A DNA stretch of 64,000 bases from Owenia fusiformis (lineage: Eukaryota; Annelida; Polychaeta; Sabellida; Oweniidae), in the NCBI GenBank assembly GCA_903813345.2, contig CAIIXF020000007.1, positions 37,286,759 through 37,350,758 of the forward strand, read 5' to 3'. The notes under the pieces are model-generated. The model saw only the letters and a program-made list of their open reading frames with translations, was not told where the DNA came from and made no database searches. Of this stretch, positions 1 to 30,700 are shown piece by piece. Each line of letters opens with the position of its first letter. Position 1 is the first letter of the stretch. Made by a program: the position numbers and the translations under genes.

Positions 1-479
1 AATGCCCCTTCCTTCAAGGTATGACATGCCCTAAAACAATGGAATACTTTATTGAATATCATCCATCATTGCTCATTATAAGCCATTGTTGATCATCATT
101 ATAATTCATTGTTGCACAATATAATTCATGAATAGAGTGAGACATATAAAAGCCAATGGGATCATCAAGTGTTCGAATTGGGAGGTTTTCGCTTTTCAAG
201 TTTTTTTAGGGTAGAAGTCTATTGCAAATTGGACCAAAAAATGTTCATATTTAGAGATGTTCAGGTATACAGGTTTAACGGTATATGAACTATCCAATGT
301 AATTCATAGAAGTAAGAAAATATATTTTCATGACAAAATTCTCACGTGCCTTTTTTCTCACAAAAATTTAAAATGAATATATATACTCATATCAATGGTT
401 GAACGTTTAGTTAGACTAAAAGAGATCGTCACATCACACTCAAATTCTAAAACATTTTTTTTCTAAAACATTTAGTTAC
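1..479. other. Intron downstream of the kinase hinge exon
   Basis: AT-rich intron starting with the donor GTAACT just below position 480. No exon was found. Around 246-290 it contains a decayed end of the 'CAGTAAAACCTGTATA' MITE family (agatgttcaggtatacagg). The next kinase exon, with the catalytic loop, must lie left of the window. Confidence 0.7.
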
Positions 480-761
480 CTTGGCAATTTGGGCACACCA
501 ATTAAGCAGGACTTTTGAGCCAATATTTGATTTATTTTTTCGGACATAATCCAGGAGGCAACCTAGGGGCATAAGTTGCGTCACAAGCATCATTTGTGCC
601 GTCATGCAGACCGCCAATATCCGTACGCAATATGTGTGCTCCACAGAGGCCATGACACGAGCCTCGTCCAAGAGTTCTTTATTCTGATTGGGTGTTGATT
701 CTTGTAAGACCTTAATGGCCACTGGGATTTTGACGCCTTCATTTTCTGGGATCCAAACACC
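480..761 (-). CDS. EGFR: EGFR exon: kinase N-lobe (VAIK, alpha-C, hinge)
   Basis: 94 codons, phase 0 at both ends, acceptor tttcag and donor GTAACT. It begins [17 protein letters not shown], holding the ATP-anchoring Lys of [18 protein letters not shown] follows, with the alpha-C Glu that salt-bridges to that Lys. [14 protein letters not shown] is the hinge: the gatekeeper Thr and the hinge Cys (position equivalent to human Cys797) are both present. It ends NWCAQIAK. The match to vertebrate EGFR is near-colinear and the length is as expected for this exon. Confidence 0.97.
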
Positions 762-3700
762 CTGAAAATATATTCAATATTTCAGAATTAAATTCACATA
801 TTCTATTCTCATTTTACTCATGATAGCAAAATATATTCAGCTTGCCTTATTTATCCAATATGGTAGTCTTGAATAGATCATATAAATACATTTCATTGCA
901 TATAAATATAATTCAAAATCATTTCATTTCTTTTTATATGTAAATGCCAAAACACTTTTAGTAAAAGATTGGATAAACATAAAACATGTACTAAATTTTG
1001 TGATTTTTTACAATAAAATGTACAATAAAATTACACAAATTACAATGAATATTGTAGTTTGATTACCTTATACACTGTCCCAAACGCCCCTGATCCAATT
1101 ATCGCTCCCTTTCTGAGTTCAGATTCCTTCGCAAGTCGCATCTGAGATAAATCTGGTTTTGCATCAGTTGGCGTCAAAGGCTATATATGCAAATAGTTGA
1201 ATATTAATTATTTTGTTAATGTTTCATGTGTAACAATAACTGATTTAAAAAGGCTTAAAAAATAAATGTTTAGGTTTTTATTTTCATTTCATATAAAAGC
1301 TTCTTGAGTATTGGACTGCATATGGTAAATGATAAAAATAATACTGATTAAAGAGAGCTTAAAATTTACAATTTTAAATACATGTTTACACGAAAAAATT
1401 CAATCTTATGATCACAACTAGAGTTAATTCAAGAAAAATATATACGAGGGGTGATCAATAAGTAATGTACGCTTTTTTACACGGATGCTTTTTATGGACC
1501 AATCTTTTTGATTTCCGTATGCAGATGAATCACAAATGAGCCTCTTTTTCTATCCCCTACCTCATTCTCATCATGGATACCAGTCATTCTCGCTGTGATA
1601 CGTGTTGTTTGTTCTTTGTGTTTGGCCCTCTCATTGCAACAATATGCAAGAATGATCACTCCCGCGATCAAAAGTACGAGCGACCCAACGGATGATCCAA
1701 CAATAATTCCAATTTTTTGCTGATCATTTTTTCTGAAAGAAAATTAATTTCGATTTGAAAAAAAACTTGGATTAACATATATTTCATGCATTCATACCAG
1801 ATAATGTTTAGTGAAACTTTTTGTGATACACAATATGTGTGAGCAAACTCCTGAATTTTATTTATGCTGTTTAATAATTTTTGTGTGATATACAGGGCGT
1901 TCAATAAGTATTGCTAATTTTGCTATAACTTTTGTTCTGTTTGCTTTTTCTTCATGAAACTTTCACAACATAAGGTACATATATCTGACTTTATTCTATG
2001 AAAATGTCAAAATGTCAAATCCAATCAGTATTAACAAAGTTATGGTTACTAAGGTAACCAGTATCATGGATATGCGGGGCAAATTTCACTTTGGACAACA
2101 TTTTGAGTGTTGAAAGCAGTATCATTTAATGCCGTTTAGCTCTTGGGATATGCAGTGCAGTTATAAATAATCCATTCCAGAGTCACTGCATGATCCATAT
2201 TAACTTCATGAGGTGCTCAAAATAGGCAGGCACCCTTAGCGTGAATTCACAGTTGCAGTCTGGCGACCCACTCGTGGTACACATTTTTGAAGCCACCCTT
2301 AAAGTGTGTGGCTAGGGAGGTGTTCACTGCAGACATCAGCTGATTGAGATTCTGATGCGATATTCCTCTCAGATCCCTTTTCACTGGGGCAAATACAACA
2401 AAATCAAGTGGGGCCTAATCTGGGAAATATGCTGCGTGGGGCAATGCTTCCATGCCAAGCTCTGTTATTGTATTTAGGAGAATAGAGGATCTGTGAGCAG
2501 GGGCATTATCCTGGTGAACCGTATAGGTCGATATTGCTTTTTAAGGACGTTGAAGTGTGTGGCCAGGGATGTGCAGTGTTCACTGAAGACAACCGCTGGT
2601 TGAGATTCTAGTGCGATATTCCTCTCAGATTTCTTTTCACCACTGTTAGATAATACATATAATTTAAACTGACAACATCAAGATTTGACCATATCAACAG
2701 TTTTTATTCATTAAAGTGTTTATTTGATGTATAACAATAATTCATCATGTAAACCCTTAAGGTTGCCCCGCGTATCCGTGACAATGGTTACCCTAGTAAC
2801 CATAACTTTGTCAATTCTAAGTCGGTTGTCCAGAATTTTGGATAGAATAAGGTCAGATATGAGTTGCTTATGTTGTAAAAGTTTCACGAAGAAATATGCA
2901 AAATAACAAAAGTTATAACAAAATTAGCAATACTTATTGAACGCCCTGTACATGTAAACTAAATGTTGTGTGAGTGATGTGCTTTTAGATATAAATTATA
3001 TGTGATACATAATAATTATGTGTGATATAAAACATGTGTGTTACATAATAATCATATGTGAAATCATTTATATCAACTCCTAGATGTAGGCTGAGTGCCT
3101 CACAAATGTTTGTCAAATGTTGCCCTTGGCTAATTCTAGAGTTCCCTTCTGATTGTTATTATATATCATTAAGCAAAAAAAAGAATTCAATGATGTCATA
3201 TATATTTGACCTTGCATTCTTTCATCACCTTGACAACATGCAAAGATGACACAAAATGAAAAAACATCATGCATGCATTGCATTATTTATGCATCAGATT
3301 AAAATGCATACTACAGGGCATCAAATAAAGGGGGAGAACAGACTTATTTGACACCCTGTATATGTTATTGTAAATTGAAATGTAAAATTTAAGAAATGAA
3401 AAAAAATCATGCATGATAAAGAGTATCTAATACATGCTTTGTATGCAAAGTTATAACATTTTCTTATGACAATACTTGGCTTATTTCCATGGCAATGGGG
3501 TATATATACACCCCTTCCATAAGTCTGGCACCTGGATATCGCATTTGGATTGTGTGTTAATACCTGTTTATGTTTGAGAGTTTATGAAAGATCATCTAAT
3601 TTGTTATTTTCTGAATTATTGTACGAGGGGTGATCAATTAGTAATGGACGCTCTTTTACACAGATGATTTTTGGATAATTGAATGATGTATCACTGGTGA

Positions 3701-9700: not shown

Positions 9701-12700
9701 ATCTTATTTATTCAAAAATCAAAATGTTGTTAATACATGTTAATGTACTTTGCATTTGCCGAGTAAAAACAAATGTTAAAATCACATACTCTCCGCTCCA
9801 TAAATTAGGCAACTAAAAGTCTCATTGGGGATCATTCGTTAAAAGCTGATTATATATTTGGCAATTTGAAAAAATTGTTTTGGATTTCTTAAGTACTATA
9901 ATTAAGGAATAAGGAACAAAATTAATATTAAGACATTGACAGAAGTTGATATCCTATCCAATGAAAACGTCCAGTTGCTAAAATTATAGACGAGGAGGTT
10001 GATTCTGTGTTTGACATACCCAGCTCCTTCAAGACAGTTTTCATGGCATTTCATACAATGATTGCTAGCGTTTGGGTATTTCATAGTGGGGCATTCCGCT
10101 TTGCAGTATGGACCATCTTTCACGTTCTTACATCTCTTGCAATTGTTAGAATTCTACAAAACATTCAACTCATTAATATGCATGTTTATATATTCAGGTG
10201 GATAATTATGGTATGCACCTGTTAGCAGATATGGTGGAGACTTATTACTCAGTAGATAAAATACAATTTTGGCTATTTGTGATGATGTACTGTTTATGAA
10301 AAGTTATAAGTCGAACTATGTTTATTGTAAAAAATGAAGTTCAATGCATTAAAAATATATTAAGGCTATGCGATTTTACATCATAAAAAATACATGCAAC
10401 TTATATGGAGCTAGTTTTGCTCCATGGAGCTTATTTTACTACACTCATCCCAAATATTCAACTTATTGGTAACTGGTAGAACCAAGGCATGACCACCTGC
10501 CATTTGTTACAGACACAGAATGCCAACCACCAACCTCCAAACACCAAGCACAAAAATTTGGAGAGTATTACAATATGTCGTCACTTGTGATGGTGACATA
10601 AAATATAGTAAAAATTAGAACATAAAATATATCTAAAAAAACGTACTGGTCCGGTACACATGAAAGTATTCCTTCTAGTTACAGGTGCACATTCTTCATG
10701 ACAGTCCTCGCATGTGTTATCCCCCGCGTGAAATATTCCTAAAGATGGCAGGCATTCCTCTATGCATATATCTTTGTATTGCTTGTTGGAGCATGCCTGA
10801 CACATATTATTACCACGACCCCAGCAGCCATCACTGGTGCATTGTGGGTCACATATTTCACCCGCCGCGGCTGAAAGACGTAATTTGAAGATAGTAAGCT
10901 TTGATCATCAGAATTTTATTTTTTTTTGATCATCAGAATGATTTTTTTTTAATAATCATTTATTTCATATATAGGATACAAGCAATAATACAAATAATAA
11001 GGTTTGACAAAGTTAAGAACATTATTGTCAAACTGATGTTTTGTAATATTGAGGACAATTTATGATTTTTACAAAATTAAAACATTACTGAGAGCTTTTT
11101 TATTTATTTTATCGATATTACTGAAAGCTTGTCAATAAACATTTACTGATTTTTTAATTACTAAATAACATTATGTTACACAACTGAAAATTTACTTCCG
11201 TATCCATGACAACTTTACATTCACAAATAAACACTAAGATGTACATATGAGTCAGATCAAATAGCAAAATGCATCATGTCACACAATACTATTTATTTAA
11301 AGGGACTCCGTGCATATATTTAGCATTCTTTGGCAAAATAAAGACTTACTCTTGAACCTTCTTAGTATATATATAATAGGGTTTATTTGTATTGATGCCT
11401 GAACAGGGCCACAAGTACATCCAACAACAATGAAAAAATTACAATAAAAATATTTAAAAAAAAAGTTTTCTCGCTTGAATTTTAACGCAAATAAAGTTTT
11501 GCATCGTACATGATTAAATGTGTAAATAAAATGGTTCAATGATTATTTTACCATTTCTCCTTGAAAACTGTGCATAGTGTCCCTTTAAATTAGTTTCACA
11601 ATTAAAATATATTTTGACCTGACTCGTAAATAGAGAGAATGCATAAAATGAATGTAAATACATGCAAACACATGCTGTGCTTTATCATCAGTGCTTAAAT
11701 CATGCTTTTTTCAACCATTTGCTTGAATTCAAGTTCAATTCAAGTATTATCAGTTACAAACAGTCTTATGCAAAGTTGCAAAAATGCCTAAATTTGATGG
11801 ATTAATTTCTAGGCTTTCTAGTGGACATTCCCCAGACTGTACATCAACAGGATTAGTGAGTAAAAACTCTCTCCCTTTAAGCTGTCACCATTAGTTAAGA
11901 GGTAATTTGTTTAACAGTGCAATAAGACAATGACATGCAAGACCTCAAAAATAATGATATTATAATTATAATTCTGTCATTTTCTATTTTTATATTCATA
12001 TAGAAAAACTTTTTCTATACTCACAAATAATTATTTCATTAAATTAACAGCTTAATGGCAGAGACATTTCATAGCATGTGTTTGCTTTTAAAAGTCACAA
12101 TACATAATACAATAATGATATTGTATAATATGTTAATTTCATGCATATATTTTGCTCTCAGTATCAAATTTTTTGTCACACATTAATAAATTCACAACTT
12201 TGTCTGTAAAAATACATAAATATTGAAAATAAAGGAAAATACTAGAAAAATAATGGAACAATATCGAACCATTTTTAGGTAAGATAAAATAGATGCATGA
12301 ATTAATGTTTTACAATAGAAACATTTATGGTTTTTCATCATCTTTAAAATACTGTAACTTTGTGAGTTTATCTAATACTCAAATTCCAATAATTAACATG
12401 AATATTTTAGTCCAAAATGGCCTGAACATTACCCCAAAATGACTGAATCCATACCCCAAAATGACTGGATCCATACCCAAAAATGACTGGATCCATACCC
12501 TAAAATGACTGGATCCATACTCAAAATGACGGACCCCATATTCAAAATGACAGACTCATATCTAAAATGGTTGGACCCATACCCAAAATGACTGAACACA
12601 TACCCCCAAAAAGTTTGATCCATACCCAAAACAGAAAAATGTGAAATTCTTGGGAAATTAAACAAATCAAAAGTTAGAATATTTTAGTAAAATGATGAGG

Positions 12701-15700
12701 AAGCCTGATTTTAGTAGTCATCAATGTATCATCAATTTTTGATACATTGATGATACATTGATAGATAAATTATTGATACATTGATACATCAATTGTTGAT
12801 ACATTGATGGGGAACTTGATACATTGATGACAAATGCAAGGAATGTTTAAATCAGGCTTTACATTTTATGGGTAAATGGTATGGGTACATGCAAACAATA
12901 TAAAATATTAAACATAATCTAACCAAAAAAGCCTCATAACAAAATATTTATCCGTCTGTTTCTAGACAGAATATAATAAAAAAACAAAGGGAAGAGCAAA
13001 TACAAAGTAAGAAATATTCTTTGTATTTGCACTTTAAGATTCACGCTTAATTCTGTAAAAACAGACAGATTTAGCAAATGACATTTCTCCGAAGCTGTCA
13101 TTTTTTAAAATACCATAACAAAAAAGAAAAGAAGAATAAATAGATGTACAGTAAAACAACATATATGTACAGTATTTTTATTTGCATTCCAGGTATTGGG
13201 TTTCTATAGTGATGAGGCTTAATTAGGTCAGTTTGAATAAAATAAACAAAATGCATGCAACGTTTAATTTATATTAATAGTCATAAGATTCATTGCCTTC
13301 AAGAAGCCTAAACAGGTTCTCAAGTTTTTTGAAATTTCATTAGTTTGTTTTACTTAGTCTTGTTTTAAGTCTGTGGACCCTCTTTAATCCAATTCACCAT
13401 CAGGGGAGGTGTATAGTATGGGGGGTCACAAAGGCTAGCTCGATTAAATTCAATAGTCTGTCAGTAGTTATTTCTTTCCCACATATGATAAAATTTAGGA
13501 ACATCCTATCAGTATCAACTTCTCTATCTGATGCCTACAATACATTTTGCCACATTATGTTGGTATTTGAAATAAAAGGATAACATGAAAGAATGTTTTG
13601 GTGATCAATATATTTTGAGCATGACTATATGCAGTTTTCCCAATGGTTTGAGTTTTGAAAATCATAAATAGCCTGTATCAATGAATCTATTGCAGAAAGA
13701 GAGTGGCTCAAATAATTTTTTGGTATTATTTGGTGTAGGGGATTCCCCTTAGCTTTCCCTACATGGTCCTACACGCCATATAAGGATCTATCACATTTTT
13801 TTATTATTACTGTGGGCGATAATAGAGATAAAATCCAGTGGCAGGTTGATTTGCTTGTGATTTAAAGGTGAACTGATGTAAACATGTAATACAAAAATGG
13901 GGACCATGCTACAAGAGCATCTTATATTATAGTCAGCTTCATGCTACATGACTAATAAATAAGTGCATAAACATGCTTTCAAATTTCTATTCACGCCATG
14001 GATCTTTCTCACGAAACATTTTTAATACATTAGCTTTGATGAAACTAATTTTAATCTAATTAATAATTTATACAAAGTATCTCTGTAAAAAAGGATCTAT
14101 TTCTTATTGATCACCCCTCGTAAAAGGTGGGATTAACTGGTTTTGAAAAACTGCCATTTATTTTGTAGATGGAAAGGGTAGTAGATGGAGCTTATAATGT
14201 TATTAAATCAAATAATTGGGTCCTGAAATGCTCGAAGGAATGATTTCAGAGTTACGATATCAATCCGAGTCCAATTGAAGAAATTTAACTGTTCAGTGTT
14301 TGTACATTTGTGCGATTAAAAGTAAGTGTATTTAAGACCCCTTAAGTAAAAGTAAAAAGTATGTAAAGTAGAGAGACCCCTTGACCTTGAGTTATGAATA
14401 AGACGATTTTAGAAAAAGTCCTTGTATTGTTTTCTCTTTGTATTTTGAGGCAAAAAAGTGCTAAATGTACACTGTACTAAATGTACACTGCACTAAATGT
14501 ACACTGCACTAAATGTACACTGCACTAAATGTACACTGCACTAAATGTACACTGCACTAAATGTACACTGTACTAAATGTACACTGTACTAAATGTACAC
14601 TGTACTTGCACAAATTGTGTTACACTTAACTTCTACAAAAAACAAATGCGAGACAACAACATGCCGAATAGTACATTAGTACAATAATTAGTGATATATT
14701 AAGAAGGATATCGTGCTGACGTGCCGTTGACCATAACTTACTACAGGCAGAAGGTGGTCGATTTCTTTTATTGCCAAATTTTTGATCTGACCCGGGGGTA
14801 AATAACCTGCTCCAATTAAAGCTATCGCTTCCAACGAAACATAATTGGCGATTGTTGTATAAGAGAACGTTGCCGTTTTTTATATGTTTAAGAGAGATGA
14901 GCTCTAAGGCACGTATACAACAACTTCCAATGAGATTGATTGCTCCTCCGTACCTAGAATATAGAATAATATATACCAACAACAGTTTTAAAGCAACAAG
15001 CAACAATTTATGCTAAACTTTGCCCAAAATTTCACCTTTGGCAGTTCCAGGTTTACATGTTTTACAATATTTTGAAAATATTTTAATGGGATCGGATTAG
15101 TAACAGACGGATGGTACTTTACATCTAAATTACAGTTATTTTGAACATGTCATTCAAAATATTAAAAAATGATCAAACAGTTCTCTATGCATTGCTTTTG
15201 TTATCAAATACATCATAATAATTACAATAAATGTTTTTAAGTGCACATGTAAAACTATGACTGCCAAAAGTGATACTTTTAGGGAAATCATTCAATCTGG
15301 CACCAGTAGGGGGAGGCACTGCAACTAATTCACTCCAGCCTTCCTATTGGTGTTGTCATGACAACTGAATTGTAAACTGCAGGCCTATGTTGCATAGAAA
15401 CACAAAGGCATGCACTGTACAACAAATGAACAGCTGACATATGCGTCTCCCTAGTAACACCGTAACAAGCGCCCGACCCTGGCTAACAACCCTCCCAGCT
15501 TGATTGTACAACAGCCACAAAACTTTAGAGATGAAACAATTTGATAAATTCATTGTTAAACATATTTCACAAAAGTTAAAATGAGAGTTTTTTCAAATTG
15601 CTCTCAGAGCACCAATAATACTAATTCTTCCACTTTTGATTTTTACAAAAATGTTCCACTCATAGTAGAAATGTTCCATTTTTGATTTTTACCAAAATGT

Positions 15701-18700
15701 TCCACTCATAGTAGAAATGATGTTACCAAAATGTTCCACTCATAGTAGAAATGACCCGTTGTACAACCATGGGGAAGTTAATTGCAGCATTTGAACACCC
15801 GATTTTAAACTTACTACATGCAGCGTTTTCCTTGTTTTGCCTGACAACAACGGTACCAATACTACTTTCTTTGATCCTGCTCCACTCAAATGTATTAACA
15901 TAACAGAGTTGATCATTTTTGTAAATGATAATATTTCCATTTACAACTCGTTTAAGAGAAGTAAGGCCAAGTTCCATGATGTTTTTGGTTCCGACTATAC
16001 TTAGCGCTGCAGATTGTTGCCTAAAAGTTATATTTTTTATCACATGTACAACAGTTAATGAACCATTTTTATTTTATCAATTCATGCATGGAATCATTCA
16101 ATTAGATGATAAAATTTGCTGAATTTATTCAATTCAAGATTGCAAGGGTTATGCTAATCTGTTTTAACTCATTTATTTCACAATGCACTACATTTATTTT
16201 AGATCTTCTTAACAAAGTGGTGAAAATTATAGAACTGACAAAATTCAGAGATAACTGCTTCTCTACTTATTGTGGTGTTCGCTTTAATTTGGCGAATTCT
16301 GCGATTTGAAAAAATCGCCGATTCTTCACCAATTTTTTTCTCAGGTGGATCTGTGCATACGTATATGCAGTTATGTTTTTATTTTAAACGGTTTTCTTCA
16401 CCTATTTTCCAATTTTGCCAACTTCGTGAAATTAAATAACGCCAAATTAAGTAGAGTAATGTAAGACGTATAAATTTAAACTTACTGATCAGTCGCCCGT
16501 CCGTGAATTACTTCCAAATTCTTTAAAAATGATAAAGTTGTTAGATTTTCATGTCGAGACTGGACCATCAAATATTCTGTGATTTCACGTACACTTTCGA
16601 ATACGCTTAGTTCATGGGGCTCAATTCCAACGATGTTTCGGTGAACGTCTCTGAAAACAGAAACAAAAAAAGAATAAGTTAAATTTGCGGAGATGTTGAA
16701 TTTGCAATACTTTTAAAAATCACAAAAACATGAGTATGCACATATAAACAAATGTACAAATCCACAAAAATTGCTATCACAAATTAAATAAATGAGGCAT
16801 GTACTCTACACAAGTTACAGGTGTAAATGTCATGACAAAATGTCACCAACTACAGATGATTTACAGATCATAACTGAAAAATGCCGAGATCAGTTGCAAA
16901 AAACTGTTGGAGACCCAGCTATTTACAACATCCATTATATCAGTTATTAATTAAAGGACAATAATAACTAATGACAATAATAAGAAATAACAAACACAAA
17001 TAGAATCTAGAAATCATCACTTCAGCAAAATAGTACTCATATCATATGTAAAAGAAATGAATGTGTTAATGAGCCTACCCCGTAAAGCTTGATTCAAGGA
17101 TACGTAGATTTCCTTCAATAATGGTACAGTCTTTAAACCTTTGGATGTTGTTGGAATTCACAAACTCATCAGCTGTTGTACCGGGGCACTCTGAAAAATT
17201 TTCATTTCATTTTCATTTATCAAATTTGTAAAGAATTGTAAACATATATTAGGGTAATATCTTTATGTAACTATGTAAAATTACATACTCGTATATATAA
17301 GTGTACTAGATTCTGACATTTTATCAATAAATAAAAGATTTATATGCATTTTTCTTTGGTGGGGTAGAAAGTAAAAATTATTTGTTCCTTAATGCCTATG
17401 TCATATTCATCAGACAGAACTTGGCCAACTGCAGTATTTTGTTCAAAACTGATTTCAACTTGCTTCAAATTGACCACACTTTTGTCAAATCATGTAAAAG
17501 TTCTCAGGAGTTCAAATCTGACCTCAAATTTGAGATTTGACCTTCAATTATGAACAAAATGCTTAATCGACCAGGCGCCGGCTGATGAAACGGGGCAAAT
17601 GTGATCTAGGCATAAAGCACCAGTATATGTGTTTTACTTACTTTTTGGACAAGGCCCTATGCATGGAACACATTTTCCCGCATCTTTGTCTTTTCCCTCC
17701 ATCTTGCCAGGTGGGCAGTTTTTAATACAGTAACCATTATTCTGCATCAGATGATCTGAAAAACATTCAACCAATCACTGATTTATTCAATTAACTATAC
17801 AGTTCGTGAATCAATTAATAATCATTTTTCATTAATTGAAATTAAAAATGAGCATCTTTTCCTCCCACTGTTTCATGTCTTCATATCTTGTGACATCGCT
17901 GTACTTATTCTCATGTTCATCGATATAACTATTTGTATTGTCACTTGGCCGATATATGGCAGTTTAACATGCTTTAAGATACTATTGCGATACAACAACT
18001 GGTTTTAACATGGTTTGTATTGATAACAAGGCATTAACATACAAAATGTCACAACCTGCCATTTGTTACAAACAATGACCAAGAACACCAACAGTGGAAT
18101 GCCGAACAAAGTCCACAAAAAGGTTGTAGCAATATGTCACCACTTATATAATGCAAAATATCACCACCTGCCATTTGTTACAGACAATATGTCACCATTT
18201 ATGGTGATGACATAATGAACAGAAAATTGGCAAGAAACTTACTTGGACATTTCGGCACACAAAGTGTCCCATAAGCATATTTAGCGTTTGGGTTCTTCAC
18301 CATGCTGTATTCTGCGTCATCGTATATCATCTCCGGGGGACATTGGGCCACACATTTATTACCGTCTTTAAAATGCTTGCACGACTGTAATAAAAATTTT
18401 GTAAATGTTAGCCATTTTTCAAGTTTTTAGACAACGGAGATATCAATTTAACACTTCAAAGCTTTTATGCAAGATTTATTAATACTTATCTTTGAAAGTG
18501 TCACTAAACATTACAATTTTTGAAAACATTGTAAACATTGTATATTGTATATAATACACATCTTGTTACAAACTAATAGCTTTGTAAAACAGTATTTTAA
18601 AAATCATGTAAATATGTAACAGTCGATGTTTGAATGTATTGAAAGAATGGCACTGAAAAATTGTGTAAATCAATCAGCAGTCAATGGTTGAAATAGGTTG

Positions 18701-24700: not shown

Positions 24701-27700
24701 AACCTCCTCTGGAAAAGTTACAATGGATTACATTGACATGGAGAAAGATTTCACATTCAGAGAGATACCTACACACTCTGTTGCTCGTTATATTGTTAAA
24801 AATTACTGAAAATAAAAAGCAATATAAAAATTGCATACCATAACATGAAAAATCATTTTCAAAATCGTCCAAAAATGTCCTCCAAAACCCCAGTGCTCAT
24901 TTTGTTGCAATCTCCAAATGCAGATTTTCAGACATTGTTCCCTTCATTCTCATGGATAAATCATAGATATTTGCAATTTGGAGAATGCTTGTGATAAAAT
25001 TCATTGTGCATTTAAACAAATATAATTGCTGCTTATTCAAAATGCATGCTTTTTATTAAGTACTTACAAACTCTCCTAGGGACGTCATCTGTTTCCTCAA
25101 AGTATACATCTTCCTCGAGTATGTCATCCCACAGGATGTCGTTTGCGTGACAGAGGAACGGATTGTTGTAAAAGAACACGTTCCCTTTCATAATTTCTGG
25201 AAATACGGAGAGAGAAAATCATATTTTTATTCAAGACAGACAAATTTTGCAATATTTCGATTCATTATTTAAATCTTTTTGAAGCAACTGACAAATGTTT
25301 TTTTTAATTACGACATCACAGACTTCAACAATGGAAAAAGTAAATCTGAAGGCATCAACATGCAAAATGTCACCACCTGTCATTTGTTACAGACTGCTGA
25401 CAAAAAAGTTGACTGCTGACAAAAAAGTACTTTACCACTTCTGGTGGTGACATAATTATGTAATACGTGAATTTTTACAGGTAAAAAAGTGATTAAACAT
25501 CATTGCCATGGAAACTTTTAATAGTTATTTATCTATTGAGATCAACAATTTGTTCTCATTAGCAAAGATGTCCATTCAGACATTTCTGTTGTCATGTGTT
25601 GTCATGACACAGCATTGTGTTGTCATGGCAGCTAAAACAATTGTTGTAAGTAAAATGATCTTTATGAGACAAGAGACTCTTTGACACTTCTAGTCCCTCC
25701 TTTCCCACTAAACAACCTGGATGTACAACTACGAGATTAAATTTTAATCTTTACCAAATCAAAAAAAAAAGCTTATATTTTTTATTTCAAATGGCTAGAA
25801 ATATCTTGACTGGAAAGTAGATTTCAACAGTAAATCATATTGTATCAGTAAACATAAATAAAATAGTAGAATCAAAAGCTGAAGAAATGAACTACATGAT
25901 GTTTATCAATTTGGAATAATTTTACATGCTTCGACTAAATGGAACAAGGCATCAACATGCAAAATGTCACCACCATTTGCTACAGATGCCAACTACCGAT
26001 CACCAACAGCGGTCACAAAACTTTTTGTTGGTGACATAAAAATGGATGCCATTTTCCAAAGAGGTGAGGTTTTGAGACTATTTGAATTGTCATAATGTAT
26101 TACAAAGGTGTCACTTATATGTTGACACACAGACAGACAGATGGGTGCACAGATAATTGGATGAATGCTAGTTTACCCGTGCAGCTAAAAACATAAGTAT
26201 AATTTTAGCCATTTCAAGAGGATTTGCTATATAGTTTGAGGCTATTATTAAACATAATAAAAATATCAGAGTATCACTCACCATATAAAGACTTGAATTG
26301 GAGCTCCTTTAATCCAACTTGTTTTGAGATCGCAGATTTTTGATAATTCAACGCTACGTACAAACTGTATTCCTTCCCTTCATGCCCAAAAAGCTTCCTT
26401 CCACGTATAATCCTTAAATTTGTTAAAAATGGAACATCTGCGTAAACACTGACGATCAACACATACCCAGTAACCTCTCGAATATCCTTCAGAAAACTTA
26501 AGTCATATTTTACATCGTCATCATCCAGAAAGACAATTTCAACGTTTCCATCGATGAATGTACAGTTTGTGTATCTCTGGCGGTACATGTCGTAACGTCT
26601 ACTCGCAGATCCTTGAAATCCCATACCAGTCGATGTGCCTTGGCATACTGGAAAAAATAAATGGGAAAACAAATAATTATATGTTAGATGTGAAATAGTT
26701 TTTACCATAGATCTTTATGTAAAAAGAATGTTGTCAGTCTCCTGCACAGACTCAAAAAAGTAAAATTAAGTAATAATAATGAATGGAGATAGTGGTGAAA
26801 GGTGAGGTGAATGAAGGTGAGGGAATTAGATATGAGGCGTATTGGGATGAGGCAAATGCAGGTGAGGCATTTTGAGATGACAATGTTTACTTGGCTGAAC
26901 AATGTTTACTTGTACTTGTAAAGGCTTTTATATTTTAGATCATTCACAAGCTAAATTAATAGGATTTTGATGCAAATATATCATTAAGCCACAAGCACAC
27001 ATGCATAAATAGCAAAACTACATCATTAAAACCATCGTATTACAATACATGTACATTATGGGCATGCATTTAAACCATGAATATATGAAGTAACTAAAAA
27101 TAACTTCATGCAGTTAATACAACCACTTCATCAAAAAATAAAACTAATTTTTGGAAGTCCAGGATAGAGTTACAGTTTATAAAAATAACATGTCAATCAA
27201 GACTGATAAAATTGAATATAAGGAATTCTCAAGCTAACTAACTTATTAATTAGTTCCATTTGGAAAAACATTTCTTATATGTTTGTGGTTTCAGTATACT
27301 GGATTTCACTCGATCAAATCCAAAGTTAAACACATTAAAAAAGTTCTGCATGAAAGGTACACACAATATTCTAGTTAGATATATCACAAAGTATTATTTC
27401 TACACCAAAGTTACACACTAAACTCAAAGATATGATAGATCTATTGGAAATTAAAGTATGTTTTCTGAACCAAAGTTACACACGAAACTCAAAGATATGA
27501 TAGATCTATTAGAAATTAAAGTATGTTTTATGCACCAAAGTAATACACACGAAACTCAAAGATATGATGTGATTTATCACATAGTATTATTTCTGAACCA
27601 AAGTTACACACAAAACTCAAAGATATAATAGATCTATTAGAAATTAAAGTGTTTTCTGAACCAAAGTTACACACAAAACTCAAAGATATAATAAATCTAT

Positions 27701-30700
27701 TAGAAATTAAAGTGTTTTCTGAACCAAAGTTACACACAAAACTCAAAGATATAATAGATCTATTAGAAATTAAAGTATGTTTTCTACATGAAAGTTACAC
27801 ACAAAACTCAAAGATATAATAGATCTATTAGAAATTAAAGTATGTTTTCTACATGAAAGTTACACACAAAACTCAAAGATATAATAGATCTATTAGAAAT
27901 TAAAGTATGTTTTCTACATGAAAGTTACACACTAAACTCAACGATATGTTAGATCTATTAGAAATTAAAGTATGTTTTCTACATGAAAGTTACACACAAA
28001 ACTCAAAGATATAATAGATCTATTGGAAATTAAAGTATGTTTTCTACATGAAAGTTACACACTAAACTCAACGATATGTTAGATCTATTAGAAATTAAAG
28101 TATGTTTTCTACATGAAAGTTACACACAAAACTCAAAGATATAATAGATCTATTGGAAATTAAAGTATGTTTTCTACATGAAAGTTACACACTAAACTCA
28201 ACGATATGTTAGATCTATTAGAAATTAAAGTATGTTTTCTACATGAAAGTTACACACAAAACTCAAAGATATAATAGATCTATTAGAAATTAAAGTATGT
28301 TTTCTACATGAAAGTTACACACAAAACTCAAAGATATAATAGATCTATTAGAAATTAAAGTATGTTTTCTACATGAAAGTTACACACTAAACTCAACGAT
28401 ATGTTAGATCTATTAGAAATTAAAGTATGTTTTCTACATGAAAGTTACACACAAAACTCAAAGATATAATAGATCTATTGGAAATTAAAGTATGTTTTCT
28501 ACATGAAAGTTACACACTAAACTCAACGATATGTTAGATCTATTAGAAATTAAAGTATGTTTTCTACATGAAAGTTACACACAAAACTCAAAGATATAAT
28601 AGATCTATTGGAAATTAAAGTATGTTTTCTACATGAAAGTTACACACTAAACTCAACGATATGTTAGATCTATTAGAAATTAAAGTATGTTTTCTACATG
28701 AAAGTTACACACAAAACTCAAAGATATAATAGATCTATTAGAAATTAAAGTATGTTTTCTACATGAAAGTTACACACAAAACTCAAAGATATAATAGATC
28801 TATTAGAAATTAAAGTATGTTTTCTACATGAAAGTTACACACAAAACTCAAAGATATAATAGATCTATTAGAAATTAAAGTATGTTTTCTACATGAAAGT
28901 TACACACTAAACTCAACGATATGTTAGATCTATTAGAAATTAAAGTATGTTTTCTACATGAAAGTTACACACAAAACTCAAAGATATAATAGATCTATTA
29001 GAAATTAAAGTATGTTTTCTACATGAAAGTTACACACAAAACTCAAAGATATAATAGATCTATTAGAAATTAAAGTATGTTTTCTACATGAAAGTTACAC
29101 ACTAAACTCAACGATATGTTAGATATATCAAGTAAAAAGTATGTTTCTTACTTTAGAGTTACACACAAGATTCTATTCTGCAGCAAGTTACACGCAAAAC
29201 TCAAAGATATGATGAGCTTTATCACAAACACCGTAGTATTATTTATATACCAAAGTTGCACACAAAACTCAAAGATATGATAGATCTATTAGAAATTAAA
29301 GTATGTTTTCTGCACCAAAGTAACACAGAAAACTCAAAGCTATGATGAGCTTTATCACAAACACTGTAGTATTATTTATACACCAAAGTTGCACACAAAA
29401 CTCAAAGATATGATAGATCTATTGGAAATTTAAGTATGTTTTCTGCACCAAAGTTACACACGAAACTCAAAGATATGATGTGATTTATCACAAAGTATGT
29501 TTTCTACAACGAAGTTGCACACAAAACTCAAAGATATATTAGATATATCAAAAAGTATGTTTCTTACTTTAGAGTTGCACATAAGATTCTATTCTGCAGC
29601 AAGTTACACGCAAAACTCAAAGATATGATAGATCTATCAGGAAGTATGTTTTACCAATTATGCTTTGATAAGAGAGGTTGATATGATGTTACAACTATAA
29701 AGTATTTTGCTAATAAGACAGTTGTTAAAGATGATCCCAGAAAATACTATAAATCCACGCTCACGTCAACTGACGTGCCAAAAAATTTGAAGATGAACTC
29801 GCCAAACTACTCCTTTTTCTTCCAAAAACGAATGAACGAATATTCTTCTTTTTGATTTCTGAAAAATTTAGAGTTCCTACTTTTTGATTACTATCTCCAG
29901 TTGTTTTTAATTCCATGCAATTTTGTTGTAATTTGAAAATAAACTATGCTTACTTAGAAATTATTTGAAAGAACGTAAACAAATCAGTTTTTGGTGTGAG
30001 ATATTACCCTTGTTAAAAATGCTTAGAATGTCATTCTCTCAAACAAAATAATGATTTTTCGAGTATTTCTATACAATTAAGAATATTGTCTTTGCAAACA
30101 TGTATTTTACCATCCATAAAATCGGCTCTCTTCCCCTCTATTTTGCATTTAAAAACATGACCACAGTTACCATGGTGATAATTTATTGCGAGGATGAGCA
30201 TAAAGCCAGGTGTTCTCACATAAAAAAGATAATGTAAACAAGGGAAGACTGTTGAATCTCTACCGTAAACATCCCCGGGGTCTCATCTTCAACGCAACAT
30301 TGCTATCACCACTGTGCCAAATTTTCTCTCCGTGGACAAACTTAATCGGTACTTTTCTCTTAAAAATTTGAATGAACCATGTGATATTTTTGCCCTTTTA
30401 CACAATTTGGAATATGGACTTTATATCTGTTTTCTTTATATCTTGCTAATTCCACTCTTTTCCACTTAAATCTCAATTTTAAAATATGACTACCATGAAA
30501 TCTGCCACAGGGCTTCCAGAGTCGAAGCTTAACACCAAGGTGACTAATAAGGGTATCTTCATATGATTCGGGCCTGGGATCTGGGAAATTCCCAGTTACT
30601 GTTTACAAAATAATTATATTTAACTTTGGAAAAACTGTCTCATATGAGAACGACCAAAAATGTTTGGATTGGTAGATCTTTACACTTAAGGTTTATCAAC

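Follow-up and report, generated by a model that had tools for sequence, protein, structure and literature searches.

Mutually exclusive exons that change the ligand-binding domain of a receptor tyrosine kinase are known from FGFR2, for which switching of ligands between the IIIb and IIIc forms is established. Diversification of EGF signalling in vertebrates took place through four receptor genes. Here we analysed an EGFR gene of the annelid Owenia fusiformis, located in a 64,000-nucleotide (nt) stretch of contig CAIIXF020000007.1 (hereafter, the window), in which two homologous exons, 10a and 10b, encode alternative versions of the second half of domain III, the second L domain of the receptor. 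Judged from the reading frames and the pattern of divergence, these two exons are likely to be functional and to be used in a mutually exclusive manner.

The arrangement resembles that of FGFR2 IIIb/IIIc in that the gene of a receptor tyrosine kinase has two homologous exons for the second half of a ligand-binding domain, of which one is, or in the present gene would be, used per transcript. It differs from FGFR2 in that the exchanged element belongs to the L domain of EGFR and not to the Ig domain of FGFR, in that the ligand switch is here a predicted one, and in that the two arrangements are not homologous. Within the EGFR family, mutually exclusive exons 16 and 15b are described for ErbB4 JM-a/JM-b in the accessible passages of PMC2944867. 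According to these passages, the ErbB4 exons, unlike 10a and 10b, are 75 and 45 nt in length, encode the juxtamembrane region, are unrelated in sequence and alter how readily the receptor is processed by metalloproteases, with no change in the ligand-contact domain. For an invertebrate EGFR, two alternatively spliced isoforms, EGFR2a and EGFR2b, are reported from the mud crab Scylla paramamosain (PMC11024359); as the available passages do not state the part in which these isoforms differ, a comparable arrangement may already have been published. In an earlier reading of the window, made from the sequence only, no EGFR was known to have been described with this arrangement. In agreement with this claim, titles and abstract openings of the open-licence literature, among the matches listed, contained no description of mutually exclusive exons for domain III of EGFR. 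The claim is narrowed, however, by the mutually exclusive exons already known in the EGFR family (ErbB4, passages of PMC2944867). Since such exons are known for both the ligand-binding domain of a receptor tyrosine kinase and the EGFR family, what appears to be new is the pair in EGFR domain III.

The exon pair and its reading frames

The gene is located on the minus strand of the window. Exon 10a (15815..16020) is 206 nt in length, including 68 whole codons plus split codons, and exon 10b (14742..14953) is 212 nt, including 70 whole codons plus split codons; the two are separated by an intron of 861 nt (14954..15814). Upstream of the pair is exon 9 (16486..16650), encoding the constant part of domain III (DVHRNIVG...VIHGRATD), and downstream is the constant exon 11 (10647..10870), encoding the end of domain III and the start of domain IV. 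Domain III starts in exon 8 (17079..17190; labelled by its order), which is in phase with exon 9 and of which the putative acceptor was set by eye; for in silico splicing, this exon was taken as 17079-17188. The coordinates, lengths, AG/GT sites and equal phases of the two exons, together with the shared residues SLK, NGN, QLC, WSR and the final Cys, were confirmed as given in the sequence-only reading.

When combined with exon 9, each of 10a and 10b completes a receptor L domain. For spliced exons 9-11, the Recep_L_domain profile (PF01030, cut-off 21.8) gave 78.8 bits with 10a and 60.9 bits with 10b, and the growth factor receptor domain IV profile (GF_recep_IV, PF14843, cut-off 29.5) gave 44.2 and 43.8 bits, respectively. 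The best structure match was fly EGFR 3i2t for both spliced forms, with expectation values (E) of 3.7e-48 for 10a and 9.2e-43 for 10b. Among the best 60 of 120 matches for the 10a form and the best 60 of 87 for the 10b form, the named molecules were EGFR, ErbB2-4 or LET-23; general names only were given for 1n8y_C (10a search) and 9mtx_B (both searches). Because the Pfam and structure queries included the constant exons 9 and 11, these scores are not owed to exon 10 alone.

The lengths of both exons are 2 modulo 3, and their entry and exit phases are equal. After in silico splicing, the frame stayed open over the 705 nt tested for 8-9-10a-11 and over 711 nt for 8-9-10b-11. When both exons were included, the frame ended at TAG 47 nt into 10b, at the 17th codon from the junction codon and 165 nt ahead of the next junction; when neither was included, the junction read CAC CGC GGC GGG TGA, with the TGA located 10 nt into exon 11. 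Both of these outcomes had been predicted beforehand from the sequence.

All of the introns concerned (465, 861 and 3871 nt) are of GT-AG type, and the donors of 10a and 10b have GTA|GTAAGTT in common. The spacing of 861 nt and the GT-AG ends count against both a steric limit and U12-type exclusion, and decay of the wrong products combined with regulated choice is the simplest inference for how one exon per transcript would be ensured. The 17-nt acceptor tracts contain 7 pyrimidines for 10a, 12 each for 10b and exon 11, and 15 for exon 9.

Two repeats were noted by eye in the introns next to the pair. Nine tandem copies of a 16-bp unit (TACATTTAGTGCAGTG and variants) are located at about 14605-14460 (minus strand), a short distance downstream of 10b in the intron before exon 11. 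Short direct repeats (CATTTCTACTATGAGTGGAACATTTTGGTAA and variants), with about three copies, follow directly after 10a at about 15755-15640.

The swapped region and the ligand pocket

By alignment, exon 10 corresponds to residues 409-476, approximately, of human EGFR (numbering from chain 1mox, 396-493), and human EGFR exon 12 has the same limits and phase. As described in the accessible passages of PMC4282322, the pocket for Leu47 of EGF consists of Leu382, Phe412, Val417, Ser440, Ile438 and Ile467, and Asp355 is the partner of EGF Arg41; in those of PMC3728333, Leu382, Phe412, Ile438 and Gln384 are listed as site 3 residues. At 412, 417, 438, 440 and 467, 1mox has the residues that PMC4282322 names. 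Of the six residues of the pocket, five were located by alignment in the swapped exon. The Asp at the exon 8/9 junction apparently corresponds to Asp355, and a Gln in exon 9 presumably to Gln384, as judged by eye against the human sequence; both are constant in the two forms.

The larger differences between the two exons lie around the pocket. Residues 441-443 are KND in 10a and NNR in 10b, making position 443 D in the former and R in the latter, and residues 465-468 are VVRQ in 10a and GNKR in 10b. Exon 10b carries inserts (2 + 1 residues in two alignments; 2 + 4 plus a gap of 3 in another), four cysteines as against two in 10a, and an NWS sequon, a possible glycosylation site, which is present in 10b only. 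The balance of K+R minus D+E also differs between the exons (6 versus 3). These differences would allow altered ligand affinity or preference, and might also influence stability, glycosylation or the domain IV hinge. Judged from the position of the swapped segment, a switch of ligand preference between the two receptor forms is a plausible outcome, which we rate at somewhat less than even.

At the wall of the pocket itself, 10a and 10b have A and G, respectively, at 412 (near which the alignment is possibly off by one), V and I at 417, I and L at 438, Y in both at 440, and R and K at 467. Since these differences are mild, a ligand switch is not forced; predicted structures of the single exons were unreliable (mean predicted local distance difference test scores of 45.7 and 44.7) and were not used. 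Such near-equivalence of the pocket wall fits an alternative in which 10a and 10b are mutually exclusive and functional, and the swap tunes stability, glycosylation, autoinhibition or the hinge between domains III and IV, not ligand choice. The two extra cysteines and the NWS sequon of 10b, and the loops and inserts that differ between the exons, point in the same direction. In contrast, the swap falls where domain III of human EGFR takes up the C-terminus of its ligand, as far as the passages cited above describe it, and the differences at 443 and 465-468 speak for an effect on ligand binding. We consider this ligand-neutral alternative to be on the unlikely side, and its likelihood overlaps that of the ligand-switch reading, both including mutually exclusive use.

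Age, constraint and copy number of the two exons

Identity between 10a and 10b was 25 of 64 aligned residues (39%), and 26 of 68 (38%) in the alignment with fly EGFR, human EGFR and ErbB3. The alignment score of 114.5 was 14.6 standard deviations above that of 2000 shuffles of 10b (mean -9.6, best 29), by which chance resemblance was ruled out. At codon positions 1, 2 and 3, identity was 0.58, 0.63 and 0.39, the third position being the most diverged, and the same codon is used at 14 of the 25 identical residues. Fly EGFR, human EGFR and human ErbB3 have the same residue at 17 exon positions, and this residue is kept at 12 of them in 10a and at 11 in 10b; in 20,000 shuffles of 10b, the highest number kept was 7. 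Neutral decay was then simulated with 3000 copies from either exon. At a nucleotide identity of about 0.52, the simulated amino-acid identity was 0.23, and stop-free copies made up 1.4% (from 10b) or 3.6% (from 10a), compared with a nucleotide identity of 0.53, an amino-acid identity of 0.39 and zero stops for the observed pair. Among the 70-codon frames of the 3.9-kb intron, 0.5% were open. Judged from these comparisons, both exons are probably under constraint, and it is unlikely that either is a relic.

A tree was built by maximum likelihood from five sequences (72 columns); it serves as a guide only and has no clock. In this tree, the branches of 10a and 10b were 0.74 and 0.78, and the pair was split from the rest at 82% bootstrap. 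The swapped stretch has accumulated about 1.5 substitutions per site between 10a and 10b versus about 1.3 between human EGFR and ErbB3, and a long-maintained arrangement is therefore suggested. Altogether, the tree and the divergence favour an old duplication within the lineage of this animal.

For determination of copy number, the window was searched with 12 exon peptides, representing part of the exons of the gene, with matches accepted to E 5. The sole strong pair from the same domain was 10a/10b (E 5e-11). All other matches were resemblances of domain I to domain III or of one Cys-rich module to another, or were weak; the weak ones, several of which run through stop codons, were taken as chance. 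Neither a third copy of exon 10 nor a duplicate of any peptide used was found in this search. Over the whole genome (498 Mb, 525 contigs), for which all counts of matches are lower bounds, the 10a peptide gave three matches, to 10a itself, to an L domain on contig C10 and to 10b (38.3 bits), and the 10b peptide gave two, to itself and to 10a. By eye, the C10 gene reads like an insulin-receptor-like gene, and a second EGFR gene as the source of either exon was not found genome-wide within these lower-bound counts. The frame logic, the constraint on both exons and the failure to find a second EGFR gene strongly support the earlier proposal that the two exons of the second L domain would be used in a mutually exclusive manner.

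Several other observations pull in the opposite direction. Among the introns, 17 inverted-repeat pairs were counted with neither a control set nor conservation behind the count, and a pairing that enforces exclusion was not established. The introns flanking 10a and 10b had no significant similarity, the single match below E 0.1 being exon versus exon. In the tree analysis, two alternative groupings were not rejected (approximately unbiased test, 0.095 and 0.215). Collections of viral and prokaryote contigs, searched for relatives to compare, gave 31 and 8 pattern matches, respectively, none of which was confirmed. The 10a form outscored the 10b form in both the Pfam and PDB searches, and the L-domain profile run over the genome listed exon 9 (39.8 bits) and 10a (35.8 bits) and left 10b unlisted.

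The low rank of 10b in these searches, as well as the pyrimidine-poor acceptor tract of 10a, would be expected if one of the exons were a silent or dying relic, open and yet rarely or never spliced in. Opposed to this are the equal branches of the tree, the retention of structural residues, the lack of stops despite deep divergence, and the intact splice sites and phases. In the simulation, decay is taken to have acted throughout, and one exon may therefore still have been lost recently; on balance, we regard a relic as improbable. Misassembly, or the collapse of two paralogous genes for EGFR into one, has nothing in its favour beyond the general possibility and is hardly credible in view of the protein identity of 38% (26/68), the spacing of 861 nt within one contig of 39.8 Mb, and the single genome locus of each exon, with the insulin-receptor-like gene on C10 as the only other match.

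Under mutually exclusive use, 10a and 10b would have arisen by an old tandem duplication of an exon within the EGFR gene. Splicing factors would choose the exon by tissue or stage, perhaps by way of the poor polypyrimidine tract of 10a, and nonsense-mediated decay would remove the products with both exons or neither. The single gene would thus probably make two receptors that differ in surface. Common to both receptors would be domain I, the kinase and the domain III counterparts of Asp355 and Gln384; they could differ around the pocket for the ligand C-terminus, and thereby in ligand affinity or preference. In its widest form, the proposal is that an invertebrate with a single EGFR discriminates ligands by splicing, not by gene duplication, with two ancient and equally constrained ligand faces of domain III, switched by tissue or stage for different EGF-family ligands and common to a wide group of related worms; we put this forward tentatively, as rather doubtful in its entirety. 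If true, splicing of two ligand faces into one receptor would represent a second, independent route, parallel to FGFR2 IIIb/IIIc, and would offer a clean system for comparison, in which the same receptor is changed in one exon.

Remaining parts of the gene and other observations

Along the minus strand, the first L domain at about 26.6-26.3 kb is followed by Cys-rich exons, which extend to 17.6 kb; domain III then starts at 17.19 kb and domain IV at 10.87 kb, and a kinase exon is located at 0.77-0.45 kb. The gene apparently continues past the left end of the window. Limits are approximate for all exons except 9, 10a, 10b and 11. The domain I exon (26277..26645, minus strand) matched Recep_L_domain with 62.4 bits, and the tyrosine kinase exon (447..770, minus strand) matched PK_Tyr_Ser-Thr (PF07714) with 74.8 bits; from their order and strand, both would belong to the same gene, and the kinase exon would be spliced to the receptor exons. 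Candidates for the furin-like domain II and for a transmembrane segment were recognized by eye, the former as Cys-rich exons (19.6-17.6 kb) and the latter as a hydrophobic stretch (1.5-1.7 kb). In Pfam, the frame at 1492-1743 matched TMEM154 only, below the cut-off. With two L domains, domain IV, a kinase and ectodomains of the EGFR family as the closest structures, the gene is of EGFR/ErbB type.

Additional Cys-rich stretches were observed on the minus strand at 8407-4880, between domain IV and the membrane. One of these, at 8407-8252, matched GF_recep_IV below the cut-off (25.2 versus 29.5 bits), and another, at 5900-5772, had no Pfam match. An open stretch inside an intron at 2415-2540 (minus strand) resembles a remnant of a Tc1/mariner-type transposase. 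The open frame of repeated units at 27531-27794 (minus strand) is probably translated repeat DNA.

Elsewhere in the genome, two sets of matches, to homeodomains and to an erythrocruorin linker family, indicate a spiralian, probably an annelid, whereas for COX1 there was no match at E up to 0.001. With a homeodomain query, 45 matches were obtained, and 11 of them fall within C1:17.97-18.47 Mb. A Hox-like homeobox cluster was noted in this region (L010-L016, G000 C1:18.0-18.4 Mb). The homeodomain of L010 is followed by KLTGP, as in spiralian Lox5. At L009 and its neighbours (G000 C6:27.03-27.05 Mb), three partial matches, all above the cut-off, were observed to the erythrocruorin linker family, which is a mark of annelids.

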